Below, piece by piece: positions 50,272 through 52,669 of a DNA stretch of 64,000 nt. The notes beneath the pieces are model-generated. The model was given only the letters and a program-made list of their open reading frames with translations. It was not told the origin of the DNA and made no database searches. The stretch covers positions 103,039 to 167,038 of the forward strand of contig NZ_PNXQ01000005.1 in assembly GCF_005217525.1 (NCBI RefSeq). Reading direction: 5' to 3'. How positions within the stretch are numbered: the stretch's first letter is position 1; each line of letters starts with the position of its first letter. The position numbers and the translations under genes are program-made. Origin of the DNA: Paenibacillus terrae. Its GTDB lineage: Bacteria; Bacillota; Bacilli; Paenibacillales; Paenibacillaceae.

Positions 50272-50718
50272 TTATTGGGGAGGATCGGACAATGCAAACA
50301 TAATCTCGCCCTCAGCTACTACCGCATCGCCTACCTTAGCCGTAGCCTTCCCTTTACCGAATGCTCCTTTGGAACGGGTTATTTCCACTTCAAGCGTCAG
50401 CGTATCCCCAGGAACGACCTGTCCGCGAAAACGGAACCCATCCAGCCCTGCCAAGAAACCAATTTTGCCGCGATTGCTTTCCAGATGCAACAGTGCGAAT
50501 GCCCCTACCTGAGCCAAGGCTTCGGTAATCAGCACACCGGGCATAACAGGATAACCCGGAAAATGTCCAATGAAATGAGGTTCACTCATCGTTACATTTT
50601 TAATGCCTACTGCTCTTTTCCCTTCCTCCAGCTCAATAATGCGGTCCACCAACAAAAACGGCGGCCGATGCGGGATAATCTCCTGAATTTGATTAACATC
50701 GATTTGCACTTTGTCCAT
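50272..50718 (-). CDS. fabZ: (3R)-hydroxyacyl-ACP dehydratase FabZ
   Basis: 148 residues. [20 protein letters not shown] and the active-site segment [20 protein letters not shown] are diagnostic of the hot-dog-fold dehydratase in type II fatty acid synthesis. In Bacillus fabZ (ywpB) also follows flhO-flhP. The start ATG lies 14 nt after GGGAGG, a long spacing. A 900-bp noncoding spacer separates it from the EpuA-like gene. Confidence 0.94.
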
Positions 50719-51076
50719 TTACTTTAATAACTCCTCCCGCTTGCAGGCTCAGGCTCTCAACAAAATAGAACCGCTGCAAGCATAATATTACCCCGCCTGC
50801 GCTGCATAAAAGCAGTTCAAAGCGGTAACAATGTTAGATATCCTTCACCTACTGCAGAAGTGAAGGTTGAGATAAGGGGCTTTTTCCGCCGGTTATGCAA
50901 CCAGAGGCGCGAAGAGGCCCTTTTGCCCGTGCTTGGTCTTACCCCGCAGTGTTTAAACTTCCCCATCATTATACAGTTATCAGATGTAAAAAGAAAATTA
51001 CGCGGAAGTACCATATTGATTGCTCGTTTTAGGGGGAAGCGGAGCTTCAATTTGAGTCAAGGGGGACTGGCTACGT

Positions 51077-51196
51077 GGATGGATCATTCTTCCGATCGCT
51101 GTTAACCCCGGATTTTTTCATTGTAATGGGAATTTTAAAAGGGGAAAATCCGGGATTAAAGGCGAACGCTATCGCTTCTTCAGAACGATTCCATCC
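51077..51196 (-). repeat. Structured repeat, copy A
   Basis: 120 bp. Outer arms GGATGGATCATTCT (51077-51090) and AGAACGATTCCATCC (51182-51196) pair; inner arms are near 51102-51116 and 51146-51160. Read on the minus strand its junctions are GAAGCGATAGCGTTCGCC and CAGCGATCGGAAGA, shared with copy B. Confidence 0.75.
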
Positions 51197-51277
51197 CCTC
51201 CGCCGAGTTACCTTGGGCTCAAAAATAAAGCCTCGCTTCAATAATACTCGCTTGGCGTGAAGAGCAGATAAACAACC

Positions 51278-51384
51278 GAAGGCCTCTGCGATGGCCTTCA
51301 TGAGTGCTTGATGACGTGCTGCATTATGGCACGTTTTGCACAACAAAACCCTGTGCCAGCGGCGCAGGGTTTTGTTGTTTTTAT
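51278..51384 (+). ncRNA. Possible small structured RNA ending in a terminator
   Basis: Three consecutive hairpins on the plus strand: GAAGGCC/GGCCTTC (51278-51299), CGTGC/GCACG (51315-51333), and the 13-bp terminator stem. No plus-strand gene precedes the terminator, and I found no convincing promoter, so this is tentative. Confidence 0.3.
51341..51384 (+). terminator. Strong rho-independent terminator in the spacer
   Basis: CAACAAAACCCTG pairs perfectly with CAGGGTTTTGTTG around an 11-nt loop, followed on the plus strand by TTTTTATA. Confidence 0.7.
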
Positions 51385-51454
51385 ATACTACCCACACAAA
51401 TTGCGGGTTGATTTACCTTAACAAGAGTGGGCTCGATGGCGGGTAGCCAGCGGA

Positions 51455-51578
51455 GCGAAGGATTTGAATCTGGAGAAGCGTCAGCGTTCGCCTTTGCAAC
51501 GGGATTTTTACATCTGGATAACACTTATACAATAAGAAAATCCCGTTGCAACAGCGATCGTAAGATCAAATCATTCGC
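51455..51578 (+). repeat. Structured repeat, copy B
   Basis: 124 bp, inverted relative to copy A. Outer arms GCGAAGGATTTGAATCT (51455-51471) and AAGATCAAATCATTCGC (51562-51578). Inner arms TTGCAACGGGATTTT (51494-51508) and AAAATCCCGTTGCAA (51537-51551) pair perfectly. Junctions GAAGCGTCAGCGTTCGCC and CAGCGATCGTAAGA match copy A. Confidence 0.8.
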
Positions 51579-51618
51579 GGAGCGGTCTTTTCCCACCGCC
51601 CACTCTTTTAAAGTAAAC

Positions 51619-51831
51619 TTAAGGCGCAAATACAAGATCAATGACATGCTGCCAGGTTTTCCATTCAAATACGCCTGTCAGCCCTTGCTTGCCTACGATC
51701 ACATATCCTGCAATCAAACCACCCAGCAGCGAAAATAGGAACAGCAACGGGATTACGAAATAACGGGCAGTACGCCAGCGAGACTTCGCCTTTTTAGGCA
51801 CCGGACGGGAATCGGATTGTTCTTCTTTCAT
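51619..51831 (-). CDS. EpuA-like small membrane protein (annotated in databases as RNA polymerase subunit beta)
   Basis: 70 residues. A Lys/Arg-rich N-terminus precedes one membrane helix (YFVIPLLFLFSLLGGLIAGY), then a short tail with EWKTWQHVIDLVFAP. It resembles the EpuA family (PF11772), which databases label as DNA-directed RNA polymerase subunit beta although it is a small membrane protein. It lies 10 nt after flhP. I use ATG 51831; a TTG two codons earlier is possible. Confidence 0.65.
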   Translation of the reverse strand: MKEEQSDSRPVPKKAKSRWRTARYFVIPLLFLFSLLGGLIAGYVIVGKQGLTGVFEWKTWQHVIDLVFAP

Positions 51832-51841
51832 TACCAAATCC

Positions 51842-52669
51842 CTATGCCCTCAAATTGTTAGCAAGGTTCAACATTGTATCGCTAGAAGTCAGCGCCCGTG
51901 CCGCCAATTGATACATTCGCTGAACTTGCATCATGTCCGTCATTTCACCTGCTAAATCCACATTAGACTGTTCCAAATAGCCGGAACGTACAGATACGTC
52001 CGCTGGAACAGCGCCCGCTACACCTGCTGCACCAAATACATTCGCTTCTGTCACACCATATGCTAACACGAACAGATTATCGTCCCGCTGTTCCAATCCT
52101 TCTGGACGTTGCACATCCATCAGCTTGATCCGCTGACCAACTATTGGATTTCCCGTTCCGTCTGGGCGAATGAGCAATTCACCGTCCGGGTTAATCGCTA
52201 CCTTGGAGCCAGACGGAGCAGTTACAGGAACATCATTGTTATCCAGCACTTGATAGCCTTCAGCAGTTGTCAGCAACATCGTTTTGCCGTCATTCGGATC
52301 TGGAACAAAATGAAAGCTGCCATCACGCGTCCAAGCCTTCTGTCCATTTCCCTGAACTTCGAACATGGCATTGCCCTGGATCGCCAGATCGGTAGGAAGC
52401 CCCGTCTCTTTAAGCGGTCCCTGCTCCATATTTTTCATAGCCGAGGCTATTTTTACACCGTAGCCCAAATTATAGCCAAGCGGCATAGCCCGTCCATTTT
52501 GGAGATACGTCGAAGGCTGCTGCTGCACATTGGCCAACACATCTTCAAAAGAACCCTGTTTACTCTTATAACCAACCGTATTGACATTGGCAATATTATC
52601 GGCAATCAAATCCAAACGCTGCTGCACACTGGCCATAGATACCATTGCGCCGATCATGGAGTTGTTCAT
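51842..52669 (-). CDS. flhP: Flagellar hook-basal body protein FlhP
   Basis: 275 residues, FlgG/FlgE family. N-terminal rod motif LDLIADNIANVNTVGYKSKQ; C-terminal helix VDLAGEMTDMMQVQRMYQLA. FlhP and FlhO form the distal rod in Bacillus. ATG 52669 follows AGGGGGTAAGTG. It lies after flhO in the mbl-flhO-flhP order known from Bacillus. Confidence 0.9.
   Translation of the reverse strand: MNNSMIGAMVSMASVQQRLDLIADNIANVNTVGYKSKQGSFEDVLANVQQQPSTYLQNGRAMPLGYNLGYGVKIASAMKNMEQGPLKETGLPTDLAIQGNAMFEVQGNGQKAWTRDGSFHFVPDPNDGKTMLLTTAEGYQVLDNNDVPVTAPSGSKVAINPDGELLIRPDGTGNPIVGQRIKLMDVQRPEGLEQRDDNLFVLAYGVTEANVFGAAGVAGAVPADVSVRSGYLEQSNVDLAGEMTDMMQVQRMYQLAARALTSSDTMLNLANNLRA

Follow-up and report, generated by a model that had tools for sequence, protein, structure and literature searches.

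In a 900-bp gap of the Paenibacillus terrae genome, between a FabA-domain gene on one side and an EpuA gene on the other, lie two inverted copies (A and B) of a palindromic repeat, and the question raised by this locus is what kind of element they represent. The gap belongs to a stretch of 64,000 nucleotides, here called the window, for which the original prediction proposed a family of structured non-coding repeats spread in the genus, under selection on structure and recognised neither as a named RNA nor as a MITE. Based on the results presented below, A and B are best explained, with a probability of roughly 0.7, as old members of a family of small MITE-like elements, palindromic and non-coding, that is spread through the Paenibacillaceae; its core is folded, putatively as RNA, and its ends would be moved in trans.

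Copies A and B and the anatomy of the core

The features of the locus are the following.

50272-50718, minus strand: FabA-domain gene (PF07977, 2.1e-31)
51067-51206, minus strand: copy A of subfamily 1, full core (130.6 bits with covariance model R1)
51088-51101, minus strand: copy A junction 2, CAGCGATCG-G-AAGA (sequence)
51102-51116, minus strand: copy A inner stem, 3' arm (sequence and fold)
51145-51159, minus strand: copy A inner stem, 5' arm (sequence and fold)
51161-51178, minus strand: copy A junction 1, GAAGCG-AT-AGCGTTCGCC (sequence)
51340-51378, no strand assigned: terminator-like hairpin between A and B, separate from the repeat (18-nt arms, 94% complementary, then T)
51401-51432, no strand assigned: locus-specific palindrome outside copy B, left arm (75% complementary to 51598-51629)
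51447-51586, plus strand: copy B of subfamily 2, full core (137.1 bits with covariance model R1)
51475-51492, plus strand: copy B junction 1, GAAGCG-TC-AGCGTTCGCC (sequence)
51494-51508, plus strand: copy B inner stem, 5' arm (sequence and fold)
51537-51551, plus strand: copy B inner stem, 3' arm (sequence and fold)
51552-51565, plus strand: copy B junction 2, CAGCGATCG-T-AAGA (sequence)
51598-51629, no strand assigned: locus-specific palindrome outside copy B, right arm (overlaps the end of the epuA-like gene with its last bases)
51619-51837, minus strand: EpuA gene (PF11772, 4.8e-9)

The two inverted copies, their junctions, the pairing of the arms and the one wobble, as originally described, can all be read directly in the sequence. 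The inner arm of copy B, TTGCAACGGGATTTT (51494-51508), faces its exact complement (51537-51551), and the inner arms of copy A, TTAATCCCGGATTTT and AAAATCCGGGGTTAA on the minus strand, pair with one U-G wobble; the outer stems are paired in A and in B. Folded as RNA, copy A reaches -53.1 kcal/mol (z -4.49) and copy B -52.7 kcal/mol (z -5.53), and none of 200 shuffles of either copy was as good. The covariance model R1, built from 21 copies of the window's own genome, finds in the window these two full copies and one weak row (29.1 bits), the latter being the reverse strand of the inner hairpin of B. The extent of the repeat is greater than described earlier: the core is flanked by a GCGNAGCG-like motif, and further out there is a palindrome specific to the locus.

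In general, the core comprises about 130-140 nt, with two stems separated by conserved internal-loop junctions and bordered by GCGNAGCG-like motifs. After the removal of 38 of 194 rows in which junction 1 was not recognisable, including reverse-strand rows and divergent copies, 156 copies were kept, and junction 1 reads AGCG-N(1-2)-AGCG in 151 of them. The four-base loops formed at junction 1 have a pyrimidine at the third place in 97 of 122 cases, so junction 1 is not an RNA GNRA loop. In 6 of the 21 own-genome copies (L005, L006, L015, L017, L019 and L029), junction 1 and the inner stem are separated by an optional hairpin of about 38 nt, AAAGCTTTCC...GGAAAGCT...CATCGTAAGCATAAGCT, and some own-genome copies are without the inner stem, which was lost through deletions between short repeats. 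The motif GCGNAGCG was considered as the target duplication of the core and rejected, the left and right N agreeing in 14 of 77 copies (17.2 expected). At the borders of many cores AGCGG, the Bacillus Chi site, is found.

Some copies are accompanied by additional parts of the element. Within 150 nt downstream, an extra core 3' arm is present in the right flanks of 8 of 156 distinct copies (L017, L071, L044, L053, L054, L159, L109 and L104), and an extra 5' arm upstream in 0 of 156; the controls for tandem copies of the whole element were 6 and 4. Whole elements also form head-to-tail arrays, at L081 (G004 C188:176127-176637) and at G039 C1:914700-915361 and 3361098-3361760, spaced about 185 and 177 bp apart. 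At L105, a TATATAAGTTGA-ended element directly follows the apparent extra hairpin of another element, which implies that elements may nest. Diverging pairs a few hundred bp apart are frequent, as in the window (51067-51586) and at L065, L067, L070 and L072-L080; in such pairs, the first copy is antisense and follows a stop codon, and the second is in sense and precedes a start codon; several pairs enclose terminator-like hairpins.

Distribution, subfamilies and exchange of cores

A BLAST search with copy A found 20 places in the window's genome, where 21 complete copies were parsed by script and R1 scored at least 47 places. With E values up to 0.001, R1 matches all 24 sampled genomes of the genus, with 1 to at least 84 matches each, and 4 of 15 genomes from the order's other families (at least 9, 2, 2 and 1 matches); at 1e-6, 27 of 299 genomes of the class match, all in the window's own family. 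The exact junction-1 pattern occurs in at least 120 stretches of the named genomes, and the genera among the 80 matches listed for it are Paenibacillus, Saccharibacillus, Fontibacillus and Gorillibacterium. Over 120 bases, one copy of the window's genome does not differ from a P. terrae copy, and the flanks of the two are 97% alike. The search of the window's own and other Paenibacillus genomes with a covariance model, which the original prediction had suggested, thus yielded many further copies in which pairing is kept, and the proposed spread of a structured repeat family in the genus is borne out by the 24 matching genomes. In the phage collection, blastn at the setting used gave no match to the repeat, IMG/VR contained 0 exact matches of the junction-1 pattern, and the matches in the plasmid collection were two P. 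cellulosilyticus replicons. The earlier view that no named RNA is recognisable agrees with Rfam 15, which had no match at gathering score in positions 50700-51900 of the window, and no title or abstract on this repeat family was found in a search of the open-access literature.

The window's copies are old, and the A/B pair occupies the same site in the window's genome, G004, G006, G013 and G014 (five species). A and B are members of two subfamilies, not sister duplicates. When stem types were assigned, 46 of 67 copies were typable for both stems, and the outer and inner types agree in 44 of these 46. Since the stems are inherited together, most of the paired differences between A and B are block differences and not independent compensating mutations; thus, the original reading of the stem changes stands as far as the pairing is concerned, and its compensating mutations between A and B are mostly replaced by a difference between subfamilies.

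Six orthologous loci were compared among the window's species group. Among the copies listed, at the loci labelled A, B, C and E, at least one species has the other subfamily in both stems with the flanks kept; at locus D only the inner stem of G014 differs, and at locus F the difference is the extra hairpin. That is, at four of the six loci whole cores are exchanged in place as units between species. The limits of high identity were also inspected by eye in nine unlinked copy pairs, where they lie near GCGNAGCG in several (e.g. L017/L078 and L036/L164), with the exceptions of L145/L155, in which identity runs into the terminal repeat, L095/L135, in which it extends somewhat beyond the core, and L021/L037, which share flanks; boundaries at GCGNAGCG are therefore a tendency only. 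Of five candidate empty sites, site 1 is not clean; site 2, in the window's genome and followed downstream by a frame that is presumably queF-like, is without the core and keeps one GCGGAACG, which would be expected after a deletion and equally before any insertion; at sites 3 and 4 the window's genome has lost the inner part of the element, and site 5 is a truncated copy in G014. No syntenic flank was found for 5 of the 12 own copies in three 400-kb stretches.

Selection on the folded core and its gene context

The claim that selection acts on structure is upheld at the level of the family. In 92 distinct copies from named genomes, 94.6% of cells pair compared to 73.8% after shuffling, both partners have changed in 29 of 34 pairs, and covariation scores 0.529 (shuffled mean 0.165; slid at most 0.121), values that come from an alignment fitted to R1 and hence lean towards the model. 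In a model-free test, the two arms of each of 164 copies were aligned with a symmetric score; G-U and A-C number 65 and 21 in the inner stems and 60 and 12 in the outer stems, and the resulting 125 G-U wobbles to 33 A-C mismatches in the whole core come from orthologous and related copies that are not independent, so that binomial values (e.g. 8e-14 for 125:33) overstate the certainty. The bias has the same direction in all four subsets (53:12, 6:1, 47:18 and 9:2). Between copy A of the window's genome and its ortholog in G004, one C-G pair is changed to U-A and one U-G to C-G.

The palindromes just outside the core provide an internal control. Their mean pairing score is 20.9 compared to 12.2 for shuffled sequences (sd 0.24; the highest of 200 shuffles was 13.1), whereas their G-U and A-C counts are 72 and 95. 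Because the core and the adjacent flank differ in this way, the core is selected as one folded strand, namely the one that runs from junction 1 to junction 2, and the flank is not; the lack of a wobble bias in the adjacent flanks also argues against a mutational strand bias. Within the same flank and context analysis (161 copies, 148 with gene context), the core bias is 81:21 where the gene is in sense (93 copies) and 35:14 where it is antisense (55 copies), so it is independent of the direction of the neighbouring gene. On the other hand, G-T pairs are tolerated better than A-C in single-stranded DNA too, and the wobble bias alone is therefore not proof of RNA. The likeliest identity of the selected strand is RNA, with single-stranded DNA as the main rival, and the bias fits both.

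The gene context was scored for 157 of 173 copies with genes predicted by a home-made script, and none of the 157, nor any of 25 young copies, is located within a predicted gene. On the 3' side of the element, the gene is in sense for 98 of the 157 (median 93.5 bp to the start) and antisense for 59 (median 37 bp to the stop), and between co-directional genes the numbers are 83 sense and 35 antisense. Divergent gaps hold 15 copies and convergent gaps 24, compared to 87 and 35 of 352 background gaps of at least 180 bp in three 400-kb stretches. The 25 young copies of P. baekrokdamisoli exhibit no sense bias (7 sense and 7 antisense). A general terminator function is not supported: 117 copies with flank palindromes have 9 right T runs and 11 left A runs, and the control has 10 and 3.

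Mobility, alternative readings and meaning of the family

The original prediction did not recognise the repeat as a MITE, and on this point it has to be revised, since the same core is found inside P. baekrokdamisoli elements with 25-bp terminal inverted repeats (TIRs) and 8-bp target site duplications (TSDs). At least 48 places were found in a search of the P. baekrokdamisoli genome, at least 46 of them near full length at 98-100% identity; the cores are 95-99% alike and the flanks unrelated, with flank identity near background. The unit measures 212-239 bp and ends in the TIRs GGCTCTAAACCATAATCAGTGCTTG and, with the right end read inward, GGCTCAACACTAAAATAAGTGCTTG. The 25-bp TIR occurs in 44 places at up to 3 mismatches (reversed control 0), and 29 of 30 examined TIR loci hold junction 1 of the core. 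For the TSD, each of 10 distinct elements out of 41 loci was counted once; the left and right 8-mers agree at 0.72 compared to 0.39 when shuffled (0 of 1000 as high), and 8 of the 10 match at 6 or more of 8 positions. A length of 5 is weakly raised too (0.52, 5 of 1000), shares no register with 8 and may be due to chance. Thus, the P. baekrokdamisoli elements have TIRs, a target duplication and recent dispersed copies with unrelated flanks.

The same TIRs and duplication length point to the ISL3 family. PF01610 (ISL3) transposases were found in 6 of 13 genomes tried. G006 carries a complete ISL3 insertion sequence (1401 bp) with an open PF01610 frame, whose left and right TIRs are identical to the MITE left TIR at 21 and 17 of 25 positions and which has an exact 8-bp duplication, TCTTTTTC, on both sides. 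In a relative in G004 (1405 bp, ends 20/25 and 21/25) the frame is interrupted and a TSD is absent (3 of 8 positions), and the ISL3 element of P. baekrokdamisoli itself is only a broken remnant without matching ends. Compared with L329 and L331, the P. baekrokdamisoli copies are of ISL3 type in their TIRs and in the 8-bp length of their duplication. This does not hold for the copies in the window, as their ends differ and the window's genome has no PF01610 match. By eye, neither a shared TIR type nor a target duplication was recognised in A and B, and locus-specific palindromes are present.

Other ends also surround the core. In P. antibioticophila and P. brevis, TATATAAGTTGAACTATA occurs 136 and 60 times when 2 mismatches are allowed (1 and 0 times when reversed as a control), and in 36 loci of these two species 26 facing terminal TATATAAGTTGAACTA pairs were found, of which 22 enclose the core and the remaining four are coreless (three of 66-68 bp and one of 156 bp). 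In those loci, no duplication beyond the TA within the ends and no autonomous partner or long element was found for this second end type, and copies carrying it still match R1 (e.g. L145 at 2.2e-22). The ends in the P. polymyxa group are GTGACTTTATGG...CCATAACTCAC.

How the core is used, and whether it has a use, can be weighed on these results. Selection of the core as folded single-stranded DNA, used in transposition, replication or recombination between copies, is possible, with the odds clearly against it. Very stable DNA mini-hairpin loops are GNA and GNNA with a C-G closing pair, and junction 1 likewise varies freely between GCG-N-AGC and GCG-NN-AGC; in addition, the bias does not depend on the orientation of the neighbouring gene, and cores are exchanged as whole units. 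However, strict GCGNAGC is present in only 52 (left end) and 57 (right end) of the 156 rows, no replication-strand preference was seen by eye in the P. baekrokdamisoli copies with the position of the origin assumed, and no single-strand transposase is tied to the core, the type of transposition shown being the one that uses TIRs and an 8-bp duplication. Exchange of cores in blocks also fits purely parasitic MITEs with a functionless core, whose arms would be kept paired by conversion and template switching, as do the decay by deletion at short repeats and the flank palindromes, which pair far above chance without a wobble bias as correction at the DNA level would give. Such an origin is nevertheless unlikely: the wobble bias is confined to the core, and the junctions are conserved between genera and with at least two types of end, even though a transposase requires nothing but the ends. 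Rather more doubtful is that the core is itself a real selfish unit of folded RNA or DNA, which has persisted throughout the Paenibacillaceae by riding MITEs with different ends and by overwriting existing cores at their sites, possibly via a single-stranded or reverse-transcribed intermediate into GCGNAGCG-marked sites; the MITE ends would then be interchangeable vehicles.

The gene context bears on two further readings. That the repeats are bidirectional intrinsic terminators is very improbable; the closeness of the 59 antisense copies to stop codons and the A and T runs at some palindrome edges (e.g. L065) are in its favour, but the counts of such runs given above and the separate terminator-like hairpin between A and B in the window speak against it. 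Least probable of all is a stand-alone regulatory RNA, a riboswitch-like leader or sRNA, repeated by chance. The sense bias between co-directional genes and the distance to the next start would suit it, whereas the recent mobile burst with TIR and TSD, the absence of an Rfam match at gathering score, the varied neighbouring genes with 59 of 157 copies facing a gene's end, and the equal numbers of sense and antisense among the young copies speak against it. In the preferred reading, that of MITE-like elements with a folded core, the ends would be moved in trans by transposases of resident insertion sequences (of the ISL3 family in the one case tested), and the exchange in place would proceed through recombination between copies. 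That the core acts as RNA is a tentative part of this reading, at slightly less than even odds; it would be transcribed with neighbouring genes, and a hairpin at the edge of an mRNA may alter its stability, processing or expression.

Small intergenic MITE-like hairpin repeats with many copies, clustering and slow turnover are known as BOX, RUP and SPRITE in Streptococcus pneumoniae, as described in parts of PMC3049150. Compared by description with the anatomy given there, the present family is likewise small, intergenic, MITE-like, clustered, slow in turnover and present in many copies, with a preference for the 3' sides of genes, and its extra hairpin in 6 of 21 own copies and the copies without an inner stem resemble the modular BOX (boxA, boxB and boxC) with its optional middle. 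It differs in its host family, R1 finding nothing outside one family in the 299 genomes of the class, and in having one core with at least two kinds of ends and a strand-specific wobble bias. IS-mobilised MITEs, according to parts of PMC10969869, are non-coding and intergenic, shorter than about 250 bp, with TIRs, target duplications and stem-loop transcripts, and the P. baekrokdamisoli elements share with them the non-coding nature, size, TIRs, target duplication and intergenic position. The text of PMC10969869 has 0 occurrences of Paenibacillus and 0 of ISL3, and a conserved structured core common to MITEs with different ends is not described in the passages considered. With ISL3-family insertion sequences (PF01610), the elements share terminal repeats up to 21/25 identical and 8-bp target duplications; unlike them, they are without a transposase, and the window's copies have other ends. 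ERIC and Correia/NEMIS elements are large palindromes between genes, have internal variants and can have an effect on mRNA, and the present family is likened to them by description in being palindromic and intergenic with internal variants; REP/BIME, short palindromes that go with a REP tyrosine transposase, are set apart, also by description, by size and anatomy.

Bacterial MITEs are usually defined by their ends, and the middle is interchangeable. Here, the conserved part is the middle with its strand-specific fold, the ends vary from one species to another, and at fixed sites one core has been replaced by another. The difference between core and flank provides a built-in control by which selection on a folded strand can be told from the mere upkeep of a palindrome. 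The abundance of the repeat in all sampled genomes of Paenibacillus, a large genus from soil and plants, bears on annotation and genome comparison, and the family also bears on how short repeats may become parts of mRNAs.
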